DNA of 59,590 nt from an uncultured Bacillota bacterium. Lineage in GTDB: Bacteria > Bacillota_I > Bacilli_A > Erysipelotrichales > Coprobacillaceae. The stretch spans positions 1 to 59,590 of the forward strand of contig CASETM010000099.1 in assembly GCA_949290865.1 (NCBI GenBank). Reading direction: 5' to 3'. The position numbers were made by a program, and so were the translations under genes. This document shows, piece after piece, positions 14,585 through 35,923 of the stretch (the stretch's first letter is position 1; each line of letters opens with the position of its first letter). Under the pieces are notes generated by a model that searched no databases, had not been told where the DNA came from, and saw only the letters and a program-made list of their open reading frames with translations.

Positions 14585-15756
14585 TTAATCAAATAAATGT
14601 AATTTTTTGCCATCAGGAATTTTGTATAAAATAACAATCATGATTCCTATTAAGGATAGTATGAATAAAATCATGTAAAACATTCTAAAAGAGAAAACTT
14701 CTATTAAAAAACCAGTGACAATTTGAAAAATAATTGATCCAAAATTACGACTTGTTTGAACAAGTGCTAAAGCACTCATTTGGTATTTTTTTCAACAATA
14801 GTTGAAACAATTTTTAAATTTAGCATGATAAACAACATAGTTGATACTGCTTTTGTGCAAATTGAGACAATTATAATTATGAATGGTAAATGTAAAAAAG
14901 AATAAGTAAAAAATTGAATTAAAAGTAAACTAAAACAGAGTTTGAGCAATTGTTTATTTGACATTTGATTCATATAGTGATTAGAAAAAAAGATTACTGG
15001 TATTTCTGATAAGGTAAGTATAGAAATAATAGAAGAAGTAATGGTCATTGAGAATCCTATATCCTGATACATTGCAGGTAAATATGTAGTATTAGTGTTT
15101 GTAATACCATAAAAAAGAAATACAATAATTAAATAGATAATAAAATTTTTTTTAAATAAATTAGAACTGTTTTCTTTTTTTTGAATTACTATTTGTTTAA
15201 TATCATTTGTTCCATAGATACCTACAATACAAATAACAAGCCCAATTGTAAAGAAAATATACATCGCTTCTGGAATGATATTTTCATATATAATTCCAGA
15301 AAGTTTTGATGCTACAGCATATCCAATTGTTCCCCATATTCTTATTTTGCCATAAGAAAAAGATGAGGAGGTTGCCATGCTTTCAATAACAGGATTAGCT
15401 GCATTGAACAACCCTAAGGCAAAACTATAAATAAAAGCAATCATATAAATGTTTTTTGCGAAGATAAAGACTATTCCAAGTAGAGCAGCTAATAATAAAA
15501 TTAGTATATTTAATCTTTTTTGGTGATAGTGATCATTTAGATAGCCAATAATTGGTTGAATAATCATTGAGAAAATATAAGTACATGATACAACAAACGA
15601 TACTTGTGTGCTTTGATACCCTTTATCCATTAGATAAACAGATATATATCCTGAAAAAACAGCTAAAGAGAAAAAATAAAAGAAATACATTAGTAGGTAA
15701 CTCAAATAGCTGTTTTTGTAATAGTTTATTATTTTAGTTTTAAAAATCGAAATCAT
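14585..15756 (-). pseudogene. Frameshifted MFS transporter
   Basis: Two minus-strand reading frames (14776-15756 and 14585-14779) together align end to end with the intact MFS protein at 18715-19908. The first ends at a TGA just after the equivalent of KVVNTIIDEN, and the second resumes with MSALALVQTSRNFGSIIFQ, equivalent to TALAIVATLKNLVSIIFQ. The break follows a run of seven A (in GAAAAAAATACC on the minus strand). One extra A would restore a protein of about 390 residues with 12 membrane helices. The in-frame heptamer A AAA AAT could also allow -1 slippage. It follows and overlaps the aldo/keto reductase gene by 17 bases. Confidence 0.8.
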
Positions 15757-16555
15757 CTGGATTTGGACCAGTTCTTTTGTTTTGGTTCAAAGCATTCATT
15801 AAGTTCATTTCTTCTTCTGTTAATTCAAAATCAAATAGATTTATATTTTCTTTAATACGGTCATTATGAATAGATTTAGGTAAAACTACAATATGTCTTT
15901 GCAGCAACCATCTTAAAATAATTTGTGCTGAAGATTTATGATATTTTTCTGCTATTATACCTATTACTGGAATATTTAAACAGGCTCCACTTCCAAGTGG
16001 TGACCAAGCTTCTAATATTATTTTATTCTCCTGACAGAATTGAATAGTCTCTTCATCTTGCATTTGAGGATTTATTTCAATTTGATTAACACTAGGAATT
16101 TTATGTACATTTGCTAAAAGATTTTGCAAATGAGACTTTCTAAAATTAGAAACGCCAATACTTTTAATTAAACCTTTTTCTTTTAATTTTTCCATTTCTA
16201 AATATGCTTCAATATATCCTTCCACTGGCCAATGTATTAAATATAAATCTATATAATCCAAACCTAACTTATTTAAGCTTTCTTCAAGAGCTTCTTTAGT
16301 TCGATGTTGTCTAATATCATCATTCCATAATTTTGTAGTAACAAAAATTTCTTCCCTTGGAATTCCACTTTCTTTAATAGCCATTCCAACGGCTTCTTCA
16401 TTACCATAACATGATGCTGTGTCAATATGACGATAACCAGCTTTTAATGCATTTAACACTGCTTCTTTTGTATCTTTGCCACTTTGCCATACTCCCAAAG
16501 CTATTATAGGCATTTGTTGGCAACAACATAGTTTAACTTTAGTATCAATATTCAT
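15740..16555 (-). CDS. Aldo/keto reductase
   Basis: A 271-residue NAD(P)H-dependent carbonyl reductase of the AKR superfamily (AKR5-like, 2,5-diketogluconate reductase/prostaglandin F synthase type). The TIM-barrel signatures are present: HIDTASCYGNEEAVG around 44-58 with catalytic Asp and Tyr, a lysine in VTTKLW near 76-81, and LIHWPVEG near 108-115 with the catalytic His. The C-terminal NADP-binding segment VLPKSIHNDRIKEN is also seen. It lies in a three-gene minus-strand operon: MATE, this gene 2 bases after it, then the broken MFS gene. The substrate is unknown. Confidence 0.92.
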   Translation of the reverse strand: MNIDTKVKLCCCQQMPIIALGVWQSGKDTKEAVLNALKAGYRHIDTASCYGNEEAVGMAIKESGIPREEIFVTTKLWNDDIRQHRTKEALEESLNKLGLDYIDLYLIHWPVEGYIEAYLEMEKLKEKGLIKSIGVSNFRKSHLQNLLANVHKIPSVNQIEINPQMQDEETIQFCQENKIILEAWSPLGSGACLNIPVIGIIAEKYHKSSAQIILRWLLQRHIVVLPKSIHNDRIKENINLFDFELTEEEMNLMNALNQNKRTGPNPDDFDF

Positions 16556-18714: not shown

Positions 18715-19908
18715 ATGGAAACTGTAAGAAATGATTTAAAAGTAAGTCTATGGACACAATATCAAAATAGTTATTTGAGTTATTTTTTGATGTACAATTT
18801 TTATTATTTATCATGGGCATTGTTTAGTGCTTTAATTTCTGTTTATTTAATTGGTTTGGGATTTAAAGCAAGTGAAGTATCTTTGGTAGTTTCTGCTTCT
18901 TTTTTAACTTCATTATTTACTCAACCAATAATTGGAAAATGGAATAACCAGTATAATTTGAAAAAGGTAAATGTTATCTTATTCACTATAGCTGTGATAG
19001 GTGGTATTGTTTTTATGCTTTCACGAAACCTATTGATGATAACAGTTAGTTATAGTGTTGTTCTAATGATGATTAATGGTGTTAATCCGGTTATGGAAAA
19101 GATAGCTACTGCATCACCTTATCAATATGGGAAAATTAGAATATGGGGAACTATTGGGTATGCATTAGGTTCTCAGATTGCTGGATTATTATATGATAAA
19201 GTTTCCCCACAATCTATTTTTATTGTTTTTGTATTAACCATGTCACTTTGTATCTTAGGTCTAATAGGTACGCAACCACAAATTAAGAAAGAATCTATTG
19301 AAAATAAAGAAAAAACAAGATCAATTGATTTGTTTAAAAATAAAAAATTTATTTATTATTTAGCTATTTGTGCGGTTTTTTATGGAGTTACTAATATGTC
19401 AAATACTTTTATTCCGTCTATGTTGACAGACAAAGGATTAAAAGTAGACATGGCTTCAACAATTTTATCACTGGCAGTATTCTGTGAAGCACCATTAGTA
19501 CTGTTTTCAGGACGTTTTATGGATAAATTAGCAAATAAAATATTATTGTTAATCTCAGTTTCAATGGTATGTATGCAATGTGCAGTTTATGCTTTTGATT
19601 TACCAATGATTTTTATAATTATAGCTACCTTTATCGCAAAGCATCCTGCAGGAATGCTTTATATCATGATTAATTTGAAAGTTGTTAATACCATTATTGA
19701 TGAAAATCAACAAATTACAGCTTTAGCTATTGTAGCGACATTAAAGAATTTAGTTTCTATTATTTTTCAAAATATAGCTGGATATATTATTGATATGACA
19801 TCATATGGAAATTTATACTTTGTTTGTTTTTGGTGTATGATAATTTGCTTTCTTTTGGTTGTGTTTTTCAAAATAAGCAGTGGAAATGATAAAAAATTGT
19901 TTAGTTAG
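18715..19908 (+). CDS. MFS transporter (MFS_1-like)
   Basis: A 397-residue membrane carrier with about 12 helices in two halves, separated by a charged loop near 190-210. The KIRIWGTIGYALGSQIAGLLYD segment near 140-161 is typical of the MFS_1-like/LacY-related group, whose substrates include sugars, nucleosides and aromatic acids. TAAGGAGGA at 18700-18708 sets the start. It is the intact paralogue of the frameshifted gene at 14585-15756. It heads an operon with an ECF S-component 10 bases downstream, then DUF1893 and DUF362 genes, so it probably imports or exports the compound that cluster handles. Confidence 0.9.
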   Translation: METVRNDLKVSLWTQYQNSYLSYFLMYNFYYLSWALFSALISVYLIGLGFKASEVSLVVSASFLTSLFTQPIIGKWNNQYNLKKVNVILFTIAVIGGIVFMLSRNLLMITVSYSVVLMMINGVNPVMEKIATASPYQYGKIRIWGTIGYALGSQIAGLLYDKVSPQSIFIVFVLTMSLCILGLIGTQPQIKKESIENKEKTRSIDLFKNKKFIYYLAICAVFYGVTNMSNTFIPSMLTDKGLKVDMASTILSLAVFCEAPLVLFSGRFMDKLANKILLLISVSMVCMQCAVYAFDLPMIFIIIATFIAKHPAGMLYIMINLKVVNTIIDENQQITALAIVATLKNLVSIIFQNIAGYIIDMTSYGNLYFVCFWCMIICFLLVVFFKISSGNDKKLFS

Positions 19909-22810: not shown

Positions 22811-23983
22811 ATGTATAATTTTGATTTTTATATGCCTACAAAAGTATTATTCGGACCAGGGAGATTGAATGATTTACATTTACAAATTTTACCTGGAAAA
22901 AAAGCACTTATTGTGACTTCTCAAGGAAAATCAGTAAAAAAATATGGTTATTTACAAAGAGTACAAAATGAATTGGATCTTGCACAAGTTGAATATATTT
23001 TATTTGATCAAATTCGACCAAATCCAACTGTAGAAAATGTTATGGATGGAGTTCAAATGGCTAAAAATCATGGTTGTGATTTCGTTTTAGCTTTAGGTGG
23101 TGGATCTGTTATGGATTGTTCTAAATGTATAGCTTTAATGATGGAAAATGTTGGAGATATTTGGGATTTTTCACAAAGTCAACATGGTAAAAAACAAGTA
23201 CCAACTCATAACGCTGCACCACTTGTATGTATTACAACATCAGCCGGAACAGCTAGTGAGGTTGATATGGGTGCCGTTATTTCTAATGATATTATGAAAG
23301 AAAAAAGTGCTATTATGCATATATCCATGTTTCCAGTTTTATCTATTGTGGATAGTGATTTGATGATGAGTGTCCCACCAAAATTAACAGCTTATCAAGG
23401 TATGGATGCATTTTTTCATGCATCTGAAACTGTAATTAATAAAAATGTTCATCCAATGGCAGAGATGTTTGCCTTAAAGACTATTGAATTAGTTACTAAA
23501 TATTTACCAATAGCTTATCGTGATGGCGACAATCAAGAAGCACGTGCTTATCTTGCTTTAGCTAATTCTTTAGCAGGATATTATATGATGTGTACATCAG
23601 CGCATACAATGGAACATGTCATGGGAAGTTTTCATGAAAATCTAATTCATGGTGCAGGATTGATTGAAATTGCACATGCTTATTATGATTATTTTGCATC
23701 TAGACAGGCTGCTGAAATTCCAATGATGAAGATGGCTAAAGCAATGGGAATGAAAAATGTAACCAATGGTCAAGATTTTATCAAAGCTTTAGATCTGTTA
23801 ATTGAAGATATAGGTTGTGCTGATTTGAAAATGAGTGATGAAGGTATTACTAAAGAAGAAATAAACCTTTATCCATCTAAAATCCATGAAGTATTAGGTG
23901 GAGATATAACAGCCGATCCTTTACCTTTATCAGATGATGATTATTTAGAAATTTACACAAATGCTTTTTGTAAAAGTATATAA
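22811..23983 (+). CDS. Iron-containing alcohol dehydrogenase
   Basis: A 390-residue group III (Fe-type) alcohol dehydrogenase that interconverts alcohols and aldehydes with NAD(P). The N-terminal dinucleotide domain has LALGGGSVMDCSK near 94-106. The metal ligands expected for the fold are present: Asp199 and His203 (GMDAFFHASE), His265 (AHTMEH) and His280 (LIHGAG). The His265-His280 spacing is one residue longer than in FucO or YqhD. AAGGAGG at 22797-22803 sets the start. It is followed at 17 and 14 bases by SemiSWEET and flavin reductase genes, so all three likely share a transcript. Confidence 0.93.
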   Translation: MYNFDFYMPTKVLFGPGRLNDLHLQILPGKKALIVTSQGKSVKKYGYLQRVQNELDLAQVEYILFDQIRPNPTVENVMDGVQMAKNHGCDFVLALGGGSVMDCSKCIALMMENVGDIWDFSQSQHGKKQVPTHNAAPLVCITTSAGTASEVDMGAVISNDIMKEKSAIMHISMFPVLSIVDSDLMMSVPPKLTAYQGMDAFFHASETVINKNVHPMAEMFALKTIELVTKYLPIAYRDGDNQEARAYLALANSLAGYYMMCTSAHTMEHVMGSFHENLIHGAGLIEIAHAYYDYFASRQAAEIPMMKMAKAMGMKNVTNGQDFIKALDLLIEDIGCADLKMSDEGITKEEINLYPSKIHEVLGGDITADPLPLSDDDYLEIYTNAFCKSI

Positions 23984-28286: not shown

Positions 28287-28990
28287 TATATCTGTTATAT
28301 ATTAGAACAATCAATTATAATTTGTAAAATTATTTACTTTGTGACGTTCATCTTGATAAAAGAAGATTGTGGTATTAAATATTTTTGTTAGTTCATACAA
28401 ATTTTTAAAAGTATTATTTTGTGAATTTTGCTCATAATAAAGAAAAAGTTAAATGTGTGAGAAATTTTATTTGGATGATCTGATACCTAAATGAGTTGTG
28501 AGATAGAAGTGTTACAGAAAAGAGGATGTGTACATCCTCTTTTCTGTAACATATAATATTTTAATGTCAATTAAAAATTAATAATTAATTGCATAATGTT
28601 GTTAAGAAAATCTAATATGTAGTGTTTTTTTTATAGAAAACTTTGAATTGTTTGGTAATGTGTTCTATTGTAAAGAAACCGATTAAATTGAGATGATATG
28701 TGAAATGACGTTTATATTATGATTGTTTTTGTGGCGCTATTAGCAAAATACATACTATACATAAATATAGAAGTTCTTATAAAAGGCAGTGAATGAATAA
28801 TAATATTACTTTCATGTACTTTTAGTATTTCAATATCCTTGCTTACTTTAAAATTTAGAGAATCTTCATTGTAATGCTTCTATCAGCATAAATTGGTTCA
28901 TCAGATTATTAAATAATGAATACAATATTGATATTTAAGTGAACAATTAAAAAATAGCTCTTGAATAACTTGTTAATCAATTATTGAATT
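28287..28990. other. AT-rich intergenic region with a long perfect hairpin
   Basis: About 700 bases without a credible gene between the Gfo operon and the third RpiR gene. It holds a TTTGTAAAAT element (28321-28330) and the inverted repeat at 28510-28551. The rest shows frequent stops on both strands. Confidence 0.55.
28510..28551. repeat. 19-bp perfect inverted repeat with 4-nt loop
   Basis: Arms 28510-28528 and 28533-28551 are exactly complementary (starting TGTTACAGAAAAGAGG) around loop TGTA. No T run follows on either strand, so it is not a standard terminator, although the CTTTT inside the arm is notable. Confidence 0.85.
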
Positions 28991-29881
28991 TTAATACTCC
29001 TTTGTGTCTTCACTAATTATTTCGTTATCAATAATACGATTTGTTTCAATTTCTTTAGCAATCTTTAATTTATAATCAAGATTTTTTTGATAGTTTAAAG
29101 AGAATAAACAACTATATAAGATATCTAAAATTATATTGATTGAAGCTAATGAGGAAAAATTTGCGATTTTAGAAAATGATTTCTCTCTTGTTGTAATATT
29201 TAATGTAACATCAGCAATTGTTGACAAACTGTTAGTTCCTAGACTTGTAATTGCAATGATTGGAACTTGATTGCGTTTTAAAAAGTGAGCAGTTTTTAAT
29301 AAGGTAGGTGTTTCACCAGAATAAGAAATACAAACAGCGCACTCATCTTGAGTAGCCATTAGTGCATTTTGAAACATATTATCTTGAGTTGGATTTATAT
29401 AAGCATTTTTGTGAATTCTGTTTAATTTAAAAACAAATTCTTCTCCAGCATAATTTAAATTTGCAATAGCAAAAACATGAATGTTACGTGAGCGTTTTAA
29501 TATCTGGACAGCTCTTTGCAAATTATCATATTGTATGAGAGACAAGGTATCCATTACACTTTCTTGATGTAAGTTAACAATTTTACTAGCAATCTTCATA
29601 ATTGTATCTTTATCTGTAAAAGGAATATTAGCATCAATGTCTGTAAAATGTCTTTTTAAATATTCTGTTTCTTCAATAAATGCCTCTTTAAATTCATTCC
29701 AACCTGAAAACCCTAATTTTTTAGAAATTCTAATCATAGTAGATGGAGAAGTATAGGTTTCCTTAGCAATCGTTTTTATCGAATAGTTTTTGATTAATTC
29801 ATTTTTTTCTAAGATATAGTCAATGATTATTGTCTCACTATTTGAAAAATGAATATGTTTCATTTGTTCTCTTAATAACAT
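28991..29881 (-). CDS. RpiR/MurR-family transcriptional regulator (copy 3)
   Basis: A 296-residue regulator, HTH_6 (SIKTIAKETYTSPSTMIRISKKLGF near 33-57) plus SIS (VCISYSGETPTLLKTAHFL near 180-198), closely similar to copy 1 along its whole length. The start at 29881 is chosen because GGTGA then ATG has the same 5-base gap as in copy 1 and the N terminus MLLREQ matches MLIRER; the in-frame ATG at 29884 and GTG at 29890 are alternatives. It is divergent from the iron-ADH-like gene at 30045, and a dyad in the shared spacer is its probable operator. Confidence 0.9.
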   Translation of the reverse strand: MLLREQMKHIHFSNSETIIIDYILEKNELIKNYSIKTIAKETYTSPSTMIRISKKLGFSGWNEFKEAFIEETEYLKRHFTDIDANIPFTDKDTIMKIASKIVNLHQESVMDTLSLIQYDNLQRAVQILKRSRNIHVFAIANLNYAGEEFVFKLNRIHKNAYINPTQDNMFQNALMATQDECAVCISYSGETPTLLKTAHFLKRNQVPIIAITSLGTNSLSTIADVTLNITTREKSFSKIANFSSLASINIILDILYSCLFSLNYQKNLDYKLKIAKEIETNRIIDNEIISEDTKEY

Positions 29882-29920
29882 CATTATCACCTTAATTTAT
29901 TATATAAAATTCAAATTTTA

Positions 29921-29958
29921 TTTACAAATAATTATTTAGAAAAAAAATAATTTGTAAA
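29921..29958. promoter_or_regulatory. Candidate RpiR operator (TTTACAAAT dyad)
   Basis: TTTACAAAT (29921-29929) is the exact inverse complement of ATTTGTAAA (29950-29958); the inner flanks (AATTATT and AATAATT) continue the symmetry. It lies in the 163-base spacer between divergent RpiR copy 3 and the ADH-like operon. Confidence 0.55.
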
Positions 29959-30044
29959 CTACATTTTATAATCATTAAAAAGGGTATTTTATCTCTTAGG
30001 ATTGTGATATTTTTTATTTGAAAAATTGAAGGAGGTTAATAGCA

Positions 30045-31214
30045 ATGTTAAATTTCGTATATCAAAATCCTACAAAAATTATTTTTGGAAAAGGAGCTAT
30101 CAATGATTTGCCAAAAGAGGTCTTAAAATATGGTAATAAAGTATTAATAGTATATGGTGGAGATAGCATTTTTAAGAATGGTCTTTATGAAATATTAGAT
30201 ACTCAGTTTAAAGAAAATGGAATAGATTGTTATGAACTTGGAAATGTAACTGTTCCATCATTATCTGTATTATATCGAGGAATAGAAATAGCAAGACAAA
30301 ATCAAGTAGATTTAGTCATCGGTATTGGTGGTGGATGTTGTATAGATATGGCAAAGTCAATTGCAATTGGTGCTAGCAATGACGTTGACATTTGGAAAAT
30401 ATTACAAGGAAAAATAGCATATGATAATTTGAATTGTTTACCTATTGGTACGATTGTAACAATTGCTGGAAGTGGTAGCGAAATGGATGGTAACAGTGAA
30501 ATTGAAAATCTTGAAACTGGGGAACATGGAAGTATAGGAAGTTTTATTAAAAGTTATCCCTCATTCAGTATTTTGGATCCCGAACTAACATATAACTGTC
30601 CCTTTGAACTTACAGCGTATCATGGTATGACAATTATTGTTCAAGCTATGGAACAATATTTAGTAGATCGCGAAGCAACTTTTATTCAAGATGGTTTTGT
30701 TGAAACAATATGTAAAACTGTAATCAGTGCTTTAAGAACTTTAAAAGAAGATTTGAACAATTATAATGCTCGAGCAAACTTAATGTGGGCTAGTGCTATT
30801 ACATGTAATCGTATATTGGGTCGTGGAAAAAATGCTCCTTGGTTGGGTGGACCATTGGGTGGTTTGATTGATGATACTTTAGGAATTACATATTCTCAGG
30901 GAATTACAATTACTTGGCCTAAATATTTAATGACTTGTTATAAAGATTTTGCACAGACTTTGAAATCATTTGCATTAAATGTAATGGAGATTGATCCTGA
31001 AAATCAAACATGTGATGAAATTGCGCTATCTGGAGCAATAGCCTTGCAAGAATTTATTGATGAAATTGGGTTGGCTCATACTATCAAAGATTTGGGTTAT
31101 GAAAATTATGAAATTGAAGAATTTTCAGATAAAATTAATAAATTAGCTAATCGTAATGTTATTAGCAAAAATGATATTGAAACTATTGTTAAATTATCTA
31201 TTGGAGGAAAATAA
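30045..31214 (+). CDS. Iron-ADH-fold protein lacking all metal ligands
   Basis: A 389-residue protein that aligns along its length with YqhD/BdhA-type iron alcohol dehydrogenases: NPTKIIFGKGAI at the N terminus, YGGDSIF near 37-43, and dinucleotide motif GIGGGCCIDMAKS near 93-105. By position, the four metal ligands known in YqhD (Asp194, His198, His267, His281) correspond here to Thr196, Gln200, Gly269 and Tyr283, so none is kept. The gene is otherwise intact, with AAGGAGG at 30029-30035. It overlaps nothing and precedes an Fe-S aldo/keto reductase by one base. It may be a pseudoenzyme, a binding or regulatory protein, or an enzyme with different chemistry. Confidence 0.88.
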   Translation: MLNFVYQNPTKIIFGKGAINDLPKEVLKYGNKVLIVYGGDSIFKNGLYEILDTQFKENGIDCYELGNVTVPSLSVLYRGIEIARQNQVDLVIGIGGGCCIDMAKSIAIGASNDVDIWKILQGKIAYDNLNCLPIGTIVTIAGSGSEMDGNSEIENLETGEHGSIGSFIKSYPSFSILDPELTYNCPFELTAYHGMTIIVQAMEQYLVDREATFIQDGFVETICKTVISALRTLKEDLNNYNARANLMWASAITCNRILGRGKNAPWLGGPLGGLIDDTLGITYSQGITITWPKYLMTCYKDFAQTLKSFALNVMEIDPENQTCDEIALSGAIALQEFIDEIGLAHTIKDLGYENYEIEEFSDKINKLANRNVISKNDIETIVKLSIGGK

Positions 31215-31215
31215 A

Positions 31216-32322
31216 ATGTTATCAAATTCAAAATTAGGTTTTGGCTTGATGAGATTGCCAAAAGATGAACTAGGAAATATTAATTTAATAGAAGTTCAAA
31301 GAATGGTTGATTCTTTTATGGAAAATGGTTTTAACTATTTTGATACTGCTTTTGCCTATGCGGGTAGTGAAGCAGCAATTAGAGAAACCTTAGTAAAGAA
31401 GTACAGTAGAGATTCATTTACTTTGGCCGATAAACTTCCTGCTTGGAAACTGAAAGAGACAAAAGATGTGGAAAAGATTTTTAATGAATCTCTTAATTTA
31501 TGTGGAGTTGAATATTTTGACTTTTATTTGTTGCATAGTATTGAAAAAAGTCATTATCCAACTTATGAAAAATATCATTGTTTTGATTTTATTAAGAAAA
31601 TGAAAGAGCAAGGAAAAATTAAATATATTGGATTTTCTTTTCATGACGATGCAGAATTCCTAGATAAAGTTTTAACAGAACATCCAGAAATGGATTTTGT
31701 ACAATTACAACTCAATTATTTAGATTGGGAGAATGGAGTTATTCAATCTAGAAAGAATTATGAAGTAGCAAGAAAACATAATAAACCAATTGTTGTTATG
31801 GAACCAATAAAAGGAGGTACCTTAGCTCATTTTCAGCCAGAAATTGAAAAAATATATAAAGATTATGATCCAAACCATTCCGTTGCTTCTTGGGCCTTAC
31901 GATATATAGCCTCATTAGAAGGAGTAATGACAATTTTATCAGGAATGTCAAACATTGAACAAATGAATGATAATCTTGATACTATAAAAAATCTAAAAAA
32001 AGTTAATAATGAAGAACTAAAGTTAATTAAACAAGTAAGTGATTTAGTTCTTTCATCTCCAACCATTCCATGTACTAAATGTCGTTATTGCACACCTGGA
32101 TGTCCTATGAATATTCAAATTCCGGATTTATTTACTGCCTATAATAGTGCAAAAATGTATGGTGAAAATAGACGTTATAATACATATTATAAGGACCATA
32201 GTACAGGGGATTTTCAACCAGCAAAAAGCTGTATTGAGTGTGGACAATGTGAAAGTGTTTGTCCTCAACATTTAGAAATTATTTCATTGTTAAAAGAGGT
32301 ATCATCAGTTTTTGATAAGTAA
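31216..32322 (+). CDS. Aldo/keto reductase with C-terminal 4Fe-4S motifs
   Basis: A 368-residue protein: AKR barrel (about 1-270, with GFGLMRLP, FDTAFAYAGSE carrying the catalytic Asp/Tyr, and LLHSIEKSHYP with His) followed by a ferredoxin-like tail with CTKCRYCTPGCP near 281-292 and CIECGQCESVCP near 342-353, eight cysteines enough for two clusters. This YccK-like fusion type is common in gut Clostridia. ATG 31216 is chosen with GGAGG at 31203-31207; the longer in-frame start lies inside the previous gene. It is cotranscribed with the metal-less ADH and an orphan PTS IIB protein. Confidence 0.9.
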   Translation: MLSNSKLGFGLMRLPKDELGNINLIEVQRMVDSFMENGFNYFDTAFAYAGSEAAIRETLVKKYSRDSFTLADKLPAWKLKETKDVEKIFNESLNLCGVEYFDFYLLHSIEKSHYPTYEKYHCFDFIKKMKEQGKIKYIGFSFHDDAEFLDKVLTEHPEMDFVQLQLNYLDWENGVIQSRKNYEVARKHNKPIVVMEPIKGGTLAHFQPEIEKIYKDYDPNHSVASWALRYIASLEGVMTILSGMSNIEQMNDNLDTIKNLKKVNNEELKLIKQVSDLVLSSPTIPCTKCRYCTPGCPMNIQIPDLFTAYNSAKMYGENRRYNTYYKDHSTGDFQPAKSCIECGQCESVCPQHLEIISLLKEVSSVFDK

Positions 32323-32338: not shown

Positions 32339-32932
32339 ATGAAAAAAGATCGTTTATTTCATTATTTTTATAAATGGTTAGCTAATTTTAAAAATGCAAA
32401 TATGTGTGATGCAGAAAAAATAATTTGTTTCTGTAATGAAAAATATCATGCACATGTCACTTTTCATCAGGAATTTGAAACAATTGAATTATCTATCATT
32501 GATAAACTAACAAATCAAAATGTTTTTTATCTTCATTTTGAAGTTAAAGATTTCTGGATGTGTAGAAATAATATTATATCTTTCTTTCGATTTTTAAAAG
32601 GAGAGGAGAAACTCTCAAATCAATCATCAACTTTAAATTTATCTCCAATAAAAATATTAATCACTTGTACATCAGGTTTTACCAGTTCGTACTTTGCTTC
32701 TTTAATGCAAGAAACCTTCGATAAAAACGAAATAACTGTTTTTATTGATGCTTGTCCTATATCAGAATTGGATAATGTAGTAAAGGATTATGATATTGTA
32801 TTATTAGCACCACAAGTTTCATATGTGTATATTCCATTAAAGAAAAAATTTGGAAAAAAGATTATGCAAATTGATGCTATGGATTTTGCTACAGGAAATG
32901 TTAATAAAACTTTACAAAGTATTTTTGCATAA
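32339..32932 (+). CDS. Orphan PTS IIB-like protein with unknown N-terminal domain
   Basis: A 197-residue protein. The C-terminal half (about 103-197) resembles the lactose/cellobiose-type PTS IIB domain: ILITCTSGFTSSYFASLM carries the phosphocysteine-type Cys in a P-loop-like turn, and YDIVLLAPQVSYVYIPLKKKFGKKIMQID matches the family core. The first 90 residues (with KIICFCNEKYHAHVTFHQEFETIELSI split across 23-50) belong to no family I recognise. No IIA, IIC or EI genes are nearby, so a signalling role, perhaps with the adjacent ADH-like protein or RpiR, is as likely as transport. AAAAGGAGG sets ATG 32339. Confidence 0.75.
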   Translation: MKKDRLFHYFYKWLANFKNANMCDAEKIICFCNEKYHAHVTFHQEFETIELSIIDKLTNQNVFYLHFEVKDFWMCRNNIISFFRFLKGEEKLSNQSSTLNLSPIKILITCTSGFTSSYFASLMQETFDKNEITVFIDACPISELDNVVKDYDIVLLAPQVSYVYIPLKKKFGKKIMQIDAMDFATGNVNKTLQSIFA

Positions 32933-33358: not shown

Positions 33359-33997
33359 ATGAGTAAAGATAATAATTATCATGTAAAAATGTGGGACAGC
33401 TGGTCAAAGAGCCGTTTTGGAAAACCTGTATATGATTTATGGTTAAATGAATATTTACCATTATTTAAAAAATCAGAAATAATTTTAGATTTAGGATGTG
33501 GTATAGGGGCTAATACCTTATATTTAATTGAAAAAGGATATTCAGTCTTGTCTTGTGATTATTCTAAAGAAGCACTAAAAAATATTGATCAATTTATTGA
33601 ACAGAGTAATACAAAATATTTAAACATGAATAATCCATTTCCATTTGATGATGAGAGTTTTTCTATTATTATTGCTGATATTTCATTACATTATTTTACT
33701 GATGAAAAAACAATTCAAATAATGAAAGAAATAAAAAGAGTTTTAAAATATGGTGGTTATCTGATTGCACGTGTATCAAGTATTCATGATGCATATAATG
33801 TTAATGAGGAAGAGAACCCTGATTCACGCTATATTGACTATGGTTGTTATGGACAACGTTATTTTAATGAACAGGATTTAGAACGTTATTTTGGTTTAAT
33901 TGGGAATTATCAATTTCGTGAAGTGTTAATGACCAGAGATGAAGAATTTTATTCTTATCCGAAAGCTTTATATCAGATACTGGTGAACAAAGATTAA
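33359..33997 (+). CDS. Class I SAM-dependent methyltransferase
   Basis: A 212-residue methyltransferase with motif I ILDLGCGIGANT near 42-53, an acidic residue ending strand 2 (LSCDYSKEAL), motif IV-like IIADISLHYF near 100-109, and a KEIKRVLKYGGYLIARV segment near 122-138, a standard Methyltransf_11/25 arrangement. The substrate is unknown. AAGGAAAAATT lies upstream as a distant ribosome binding site, AAGGAAAAAGAT immediately before ATG. It is a single gene in the island with long AT-rich flanks. Its RWG-like N terminus (MWDSWSKSRFG) resembles small-molecule methylases. Confidence 0.87.
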   Translation: MSKDNNYHVKMWDSWSKSRFGKPVYDLWLNEYLPLFKKSEIILDLGCGIGANTLYLIEKGYSVLSCDYSKEALKNIDQFIEQSNTKYLNMNNPFPFDDESFSIIIADISLHYFTDEKTIQIMKEIKRVLKYGGYLIARVSSIHDAYNVNEEENPDSRYIDYGCYGQRYFNEQDLERYFGLIGNYQFREVLMTRDEEFYSYPKALYQILVNKD

Positions 33998-34775: not shown

Positions 34776-35923
34776 ATGGGAAAGGATTTAAGAAATAAAG
34801 AACTCGGTTTAGGTATCATACAGAGAAAAGACGGACTTTATATGGCCAGATTTACAAATAAATCAGGTAAACGCATTGCACTGACAGATCCTGATCTGAA
34901 ATGCTTGAGAATGAGGTTTGAAAAGGCAAAGGTAGAAGATTATGAAAGCCAGGGTGTGGCTACACGTAACTACAGTATCAAAGAATGGCATGATTTCTGG
35001 ATAGAGAATATTAAAAAGCCTCAGGGAGTTACTCAACAGTATCTGGACCATCTGGAGACAGCTTTTAACAAATACATCATCAAAAAAGATAGAGGAAATA
35101 TTTCCATCAGAGAATTTCGTATGATTGATGTTCAGCTGATCGTTAATGAAGCCAGTAATGATTCGGTTACTGCAGCCATCAATATACTGTCTGTCTTAAA
35201 ACAAATGTTCAATGTAGCCTATGAAAACGATCTTATTAAGAAAAATCCTGCCAAAAGCATTCATATATCAAAACCAAGAAGAAGGGCAACAGAAGCCATG
35301 TCAAGGAAGGATGAAGAAGTTCTGATCAGTCATATCGCTTCTCAACGCCTTAAGGATATGGTGCTGCTGATGCTGAATACAGGTCTAAGATTAAGTGAAT
35401 TACTTGGTCTTTCTTTTGATGAGGTTGATCTTGAAAAAAAGTATATTTGCATTCGACATCAGCTTTCCTATCGACGCAATGAAGAGGGAGAATACATCTT
35501 TGCAAAAACAAAGAACAAAAAAGCAGGATCATCCCACTCAATAAAACAGCATATGAAATACTGGATAGAAACATCAAAAAAAGAAAGCCTGAACTAGGGA
35601 AGATATATAGAGGAAAATCATCGATCAGTGATGATCTTATCTTTGTATCATCATTTGGTGATGCATACAATCGTACTGGTTTTAGCAGCTCATTAGGATA
35701 CTGTATAGAAAAGGCAAAAAAAAGCGGATATGAATTTGACTGTCCAAGACTTTCAGCGCATATTTTCAGACATACGTTTGCAACGCGTTGTCTAGAAGCG
35801 GGAATGACACCAAATACTGTCAGTTCTCTTTTAGGACATGGGACCATTCGTATGACACTGTCCTATGTTCACAACAGTACAGAAAAATTCAGAGAGGATA
35901 CAGCGTTGTTGGATAAAATCTAA
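34776..35923 (+). pseudogene. int: Tyrosine integrase, frameshifted
   Basis: A Tn916-like integrase. Frame 1 (34776-35597) encodes the arm-binding N terminus, the core-binding domain (about 65-165) and the first catalytic part with the active-site Arg in LLMLNTGLRLSELLGL. The frame then moves by -1 near 35538-35550. The rest continues in another frame to 35923, with TAYEILDRNIKKR, the HIFRHTFATRC box, LLGHG and the nucleophile Tyr in MTLSYVH. All catalytic residues survive on the DNA, so one lost base explains the break. It lies 175 bases from attR. It could still be read if the sequence contains an error. Confidence 0.9.

Follow-up and report, generated by a model that had tools for sequence, protein, structure and literature searches.

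A conserved clade of YqhD/butanol dehydrogenase-type proteins with all four metal ligands replaced, encoded beside an Fe-S aldo/keto reductase in Coprobacillaceae

The window, by which we mean the whole stretch of 59,590 nucleotides analyzed here, encodes a homologue of the iron-containing alcohol dehydrogenases (Fe-ADHs) of the YqhD/butanol dehydrogenase (BDH) type, in which all four metal ligands are replaced (hereafter the ADH-like protein). At the level of sequence, this protein is shown to belong to a real clade of single origin that is conserved and under purifying selection; the gene is neither a one-off nor dying. We propose, with moderate and roughly even confidence, that the clade is a functional and distinct YqhD/BDH subfamily that gave up its catalytic metal and may act as a metal-independent NAD(P)-linked oxidoreductase. 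A literature search, lying mostly outside subscription journals, found no description of the clade, and the subfamily is undescribed in the sources searched. The features of the window are collected in Table 1.

Table 1. Positions of the ADH-like gene and associated features in the window
Feature	Position	Strand	Remark
DkgA-like aldo/keto reductase	15740..16555	-	same accessory island
MFS transporter, LacY/sugar-efflux like	18715..19908	+	homologues flank most ADH-like/AKR pairs
Separate Fe-ADH paralogue, lactaldehyde reductase/ErcA-like	22811..23983	+	DHHH ligands intact; 31% identical to ADH-like protein
Divergent RpiR-family regulator	28991..29890	-	HTH_6 + SIS
Candidate RpiR operator, 52-bp interrupted palindrome	29914..29965	.	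AAN5TTTACA-N26-TGTAAAN5TT; core 29921-29958
Ribosome-binding site of ADH-like gene	30030..30035	+	AGGAGG, direct reading
Ligand-less YqhD/BDH-type Fe-ADH homologue	30045..31214	+	389 aa; metal positions T196/Q200/G269/Y283
Aldo/keto reductase (AKR), C-terminal 2x[4Fe-4S]	31216..32322	+	CxxCxxCxxxC twice; tetrad D43/Y48/K73/H107 kept
PTS lactose/cellobiose IIB-like domain, N-terminal extension	32339..32932	+	next to AKR in only a few relatives
SAM methyltransferase	33359..33997	+	kept beside module in L060, L068, L127

Replacement of the metal ligands and distribution of the clade

The ADH-like gene is intact, as the sequence-only reading had held: an ATG start codon behind AGGAGG opens an uninterrupted frame of 389 amino acids. 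PF00465 (8e-38; 130.1 bits against a cut-off of 31.3) and PF25137 (1.4e-14; 54.7 bits against 27) together cover the full length of the protein, and the closest solved chains are 7w9x (216.6 bits), TmBDH 1vlj (202), BDH-A 6l1k and E. coli YqhD 1oj7. With the profile of YqhD NAD(P)H aldehyde reductase (NF011717), the protein scores 181.7 bits, below the equivalog cut-off of 645. The match to ErcA (NF041833), an Fe-ADH homologue named as regulatory, is weak (94.3 bits against an equivalog cut-off of 550); the intact Fe-ADH paralogue of the window, which is not an orthologue of the ADH-like protein, is closer to ErcA (200 bits). The ADH-like protein has full-length homology, dinucleotide motifs and domain order in common with the YqhD/BDH branch of the group III Fe-ADHs (1oj7, 1vlj and 7w9x), and it is approximately 30-36% identical to intact members, whereas it differs from them in the replacement of all four metal ligands and in K161H, V152E, G193H and T143S.

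The sequence-only reading had assigned T196, Q200, G269 and Y283 to the positions of the Asp/His/His/His ligands, and exactly these residues are found in alignments to YqhD and to TmBDH, the latter sequence taken from the structure-database search alignment. A third aligner setting puts gaps in the G269 region. As no His or Cys between residues 224 and 297 is conserved in the clade, no alignment shift can bring back the third or the fourth His; another Asp/His set at the four canonical positions was looked for in the alignments, and none was present. The protein thus lacks the Asp/His/His/His divalent metal site of the PF00465 family. The pattern (T/E/C)QGY occupies the ligand positions in 12/12 distinct clade members and DHHH is found in each of the six further Fe-ADHs of this genome that could be aligned, indicating that the pattern is not due to chance. 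DHHH is also kept in every one of the 29 intact relatives compared.

In FnYqdH, Ala at any one of the four ligands abolished activity (PMC9917632); therefore, the ancestral mechanism cannot persist unchanged in the ADH-like clade. Maleylacetate reductases (MARs, cd08177) are metal-free members of the same Fe-ADH family, and their activity without metal has been attributed to replacement of the Asp ligand only, by Asn or Arg (PMC5125639). In the MAR PcpE, His172 and Lys238 are essential (PMC5741723). MARs keep the His ligands by description (PMC5125639), whereas the ADH-like protein has all three His replaced and, unlike MARs, belongs to the BDH branch with none of the four ligands. Given the inactive FnYqdH mutants and the Asp-only loss described for MARs, the loss of all four ligands exceeds the MAR precedent.

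The ADH-like gene is present in 9 of the 43 genomes of the family, namely in that of the window and, at 51-79% protein identity, in eight more, and the next best proteins in these genomes reach no more than 37%. It is absent from the rest of the 315 genomes of the order, and 392 genomes of the phylum contained no further carrier. Broader searches retrieved carriers outside the family from Lachnospiraceae/Hungatella MAGs only; the orthologues sit in Coprobacillaceae/Erysipelotrichaceae and three Lachnospiraceae MAGs. Beduini massiliensis is among the cultured carriers, and related matches name Thomasclavelia and Candidatus Stoquefichus. Phage origin was rejected, as no viral contig with a relative of the gene was found, and plasmid origin was also rejected, the Fe-ADHs among the plasmid matches listed being at most 34% identical. 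Phylogenetic analysis united the ADH-like sequences in one group (support 100/100) whose stem measures 1.64 changes per site; the tree does not fix where this group attaches among the intact ones. The homologues sharing the four substitutions, for which the sequence-only reading had proposed a search, thus form a coherent clade under purifying selection, and no orthologue with intact ligands was found in the same neighbourhood position.

The patchy distribution (9/43 family genomes), the copies broken by stops or frameshifts in two relatives (L048/L067 and L053) and the L061 copy without SEMDGN could be read as a former alcohol dehydrogenase decaying toward loss. This is highly improbable, being contradicted by the selection test: NG86 dN/dS ranges from 0.04 to 0.13 in seven pairs and reaches 0.31 in the pair of window and L044, with dS near saturation in several pairs. 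Moreover, nearly all members have full-length frames, identical substitutions occur across families, and the broken copies show later loss, MAG errors also being possible. For 30045..31214 itself, a DNA-level artefact or pseudogene is ruled out by the intact frame, the ribosome-binding site, dN/dS and the orthologues. The L061 copy (L061:7015-8157) is the second one in G651, and its SEMDGN, part of GSGSEMDGNSE, is missing in frame, as a real variant or a MAG error. The copies at L053:7001-7981 and L067:4267-5421 are frameshifted or contain stops, either by later independent loss or by assembly errors; a broken AKR adjoins the broken copy at L067.

Cofactor side and the rebuilt pocket

The segment GGGCCIDMAK of the ADH-like protein matches the NAD(P)-binding motif GGG-x3-D-x2-K, and the residues that contact the cofactor in TmBDH have conserved counterparts in the clade, G39, S41, G97, D101, T139 and N150. 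A switch analysis of the 12 clade members versus the 29 intact relatives gave T143S, V152E, G193H, H200Q, H269G, H283Y and L287I as the strongest opposite-fixed switches. Other clade switches are D196 to T/E/C, K161H (11/12), S98 to C/T and G284 to S/A/T; the list further includes A169K, for which only two intact residues were aligned. The fixed switches cluster at cofactor and metal positions. As the TmBDH positions equivalent to 98, 148, 150 and 161 contact NADPH (PMC9917632) and switched positions are among them, the loss of the metal ligands is accompanied by concerted substitution on the cofactor side and by the gain of a His in the ligand helix. The changes S98 to C/T, K161 to H and V152 to E, taken together with the new H193, indicate that the pocket was rebuilt rather than only lost. 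The clade has a new fixed pocket set, E152, H161, H193, Q200 and Y283, in 11-12 of the 12 members. From the i, i+3/4, i+7 spacing, we infer that H193, T196/I197 and Q200 lie on one helix face. The aligned residues show that the dinucleotide-binding motifs stay while the putative nicotinamide/metal pocket is remodelled. The earlier description of the nucleotide-binding half as intact thus holds for the motifs and contacts that are kept, but not for S98 (C/T), K161 (H) and V152 (E), three positions at or close to a cofactor contact.

The new residues could alternatively form a relocated metal site, in which a divalent metal close to the original position would be held by E152, H161 and H193, possibly together with D/E277 or E203. 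E152, H193 and H161 are clade-specific and invariant or nearly so, D/E is kept at 277, the spacing would put H193 on the helix face of 196/197 and 200, and E203 corresponds to Glu206 of FnYqdH, which contacts Co2+ in the crystal structure (PMC9917632). However, E152 and H161 lie on the cofactor domain side in TmBDH, so a common metal site with H193 would require a closed cleft. Furthermore, the conserved His residues of the clade are limited to H161, H193 and the partly conserved H345. A relocated metal is accordingly judged improbable.

The Fe-S aldo/keto reductase, the accessory island and a candidate operator

The gene order is as the sequence-only reading had given it, with the ADH-like gene in an operon with the Fe-S AKR and the PTS IIB-like gene and divergent from the RpiR gene. 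The AKR and RpiR genes are conserved beside the ADH-like gene, but the PTS IIB-like gene is present in few loci only and was dropped as a constant functional partner. The start codon of the AKR lies 1 nt after the stop codon of the ADH-like gene. Neither its tetrad nor any of its eight cysteines varies among 15 AKR orthologues, and the PDB contained no match to the Fe-S AKR at E 1e-10. The two genes adjoin in both orders, ADH-AKR in Coprobacillaceae and AKR-ADH in Lachnospiraceae, with L064 as the only exception; this is a second copy, and the other copy of the same genome (L061) has the AKR. All nine family carriers of the ADH-like gene have the AKR, counting one broken (L067) and one split (L060) AKR. 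Five family genomes hold the AKR alone, and wherever the ADH-like gene is intact an AKR orthologue is present too (Fisher p 3.6e-6 for co-occurrence in the 43 family genomes, treated as unrelated). In addition, BDH-type Fe-ADHs with intact DHHH adjoin another 4Fe-4S-type AKR, 42-43% identical to that of the window, at L105:1257-3581 and L106:5948-8275; therefore, ADH/AKR pairing exists also with a normal metal site.

Alternatively, the ADH-like protein may serve the 2x[4Fe-4S] AKR as a non-catalytic subunit, with a role in regulation or electron delivery and with NAD(P)H and/or a carbonyl compound as its ligand. The near-obligate adjacency in both gene orders, the occurrence of the AKR alone in five family genomes while no intact ADH-like gene lacks an AKR orthologue, the higher conservation of the AKR (69-80% identity versus 51-79% for the ADH-like protein) and the loss of all four catalytic ligands are consistent with such a role. 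Dead sites usually drift, however, whereas E152, H161, H193, Q200 and Y283 are fixed here in 11-12/12 members, and the AKR persists without the ADH-like protein in at least five genomes. We regard this partnership as possible, though rather unlikely.

In four of the five loci having the AKR but not the ADH-like gene, an SDR is nearby, which weakly suggests that an oxidoreductase step belongs to these loci. Strict replacement of the ADH-like gene by the SDR, prompted by L099-L102, was rejected, as L046, L062, L066 and L068 hold both. Recurrent companions of the ADH-like/AKR loci are the RpiR regulator, MFS transporters, the DkgA-like AKR, the SDR and the methyltransferase, and part of the loci also contain Gfo/Idh enzymes, a GH1-like glycosidase (named from sequence) and MatE, EamA and TauE transporters. 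In the window, the accessory island (13646-33997) follows a leucyl-tRNA synthetase-like ORF, as it does in G006, and it also holds two more RpiR genes, two MFS transporters, MatE, DUF362, a flavin reductase, an HbpS-like protein and two Gfo/Idh proteins. The recurrence of parts of the island in other Coprobacillaceae and in Lachnospiraceae MAGs suggests that modules are exchanged. Immediately downstream of the window's island, an apparently truncated ORF resembles a tyrosine-recombinase (Tn916-type) integrase (34776-35597). A very strong stem-loop of 20 pairs with a 4-base loop (28509-28552), which separates the RpiR gene from the Gfo/Idh genes, is a likely terminator; no RNA element reached the gathering score in 28-36 kb.

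The region between the RpiR gene and the ADH-like gene contains TTTACA-N26-TGTAAA. With 16-34 spacer bases allowed, 22 distinct matches were found in related loci and the spacer is exactly 26 in 16 of them; with flanking AA/TT the palindrome spans 52 bp. An exact search for this 52-bp pattern gave 17 sites in 12/43 family genomes (none for the reversed control), the window's genome holding a single copy. Most of these sites adjoin RpiR genes and companion genes. The palindrome was located at L044:3707, L059:4304, L061:2960 and 5460, L103:12819, L126:7428 and 11829, and L127:5834 and 10521; at these sites it precedes transporter and oxidoreductase genes and neighbours RpiR paralogues. It is likely the operator of the RpiR subfamily, which would bind there.

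Proposed function and implications

Sensor, metal-independent enzyme and subunit, the three roles offered by the sequence-only reading, are not separable by sequence, and we favour the enzyme over the AKR partner and the relocated metal, its two close rivals. The arguments for an enzyme are the ligand pattern shared by 12/12 members, purifying selection, the single 100/100 clade, the fixed switches and the kept cofactor contacts, to which the adjacent, catalytically intact Fe-S AKR, the co-occurrence and the MAR precedent (PMC5125639) add. The loss of K161, which is conserved in all intact relatives, argues against it. In the proposed mechanism, NAD(P)H would be bound in the usual cleft and hydride would be donated to, or taken from, a substrate with a carbonyl group or an activated C=C bond. 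His/Tyr/Glu side chains would polarise the substrate in place of the divalent metal, as in the metal-free MARs, with H193 and Y283 as the likeliest acid/base residues. Judging from the gene neighbourhood, the substrate would probably be a small carbonyl compound or a sugar/aglycone product of the same island, which surrounds it with the Fe-S AKR, the DkgA-like AKR, the SDR, the methyltransferase, transporters and, in some relatives, a GH1 glycosidase. The ADH-like enzyme and the Fe-S AKR would then work side by side, and the accessory island, under RpiR control, would be dedicated to small carbonyls or aglycones. A more speculative extension, with a low chance of being correct, is that the new metal-free site (Glu152/His161/His193/Gln200/Tyr283) forms half of a two-component redox enzyme with the 4Fe-4S AKR, in which electrons would pass between NAD(P)H and the iron-sulfur clusters in a reaction devoted to a small molecule of gut origin.

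Fe-ADHs are automatically annotated as metal-dependent alcohol dehydrogenases, and members of the ADH-like clade would therefore be misannotated. As the substitutions are few and nearly invariant, a single purified protein plus four or five mutants would be enough to address the question. The Fe-S AKR neighbour and the conserved candidate operator would provide a defined regulon for the substrate search. The exchange of a whole metal site for a fixed set of residues would represent a natural experiment in rebuilding a metalloenzyme fold for metal-free chemistry.
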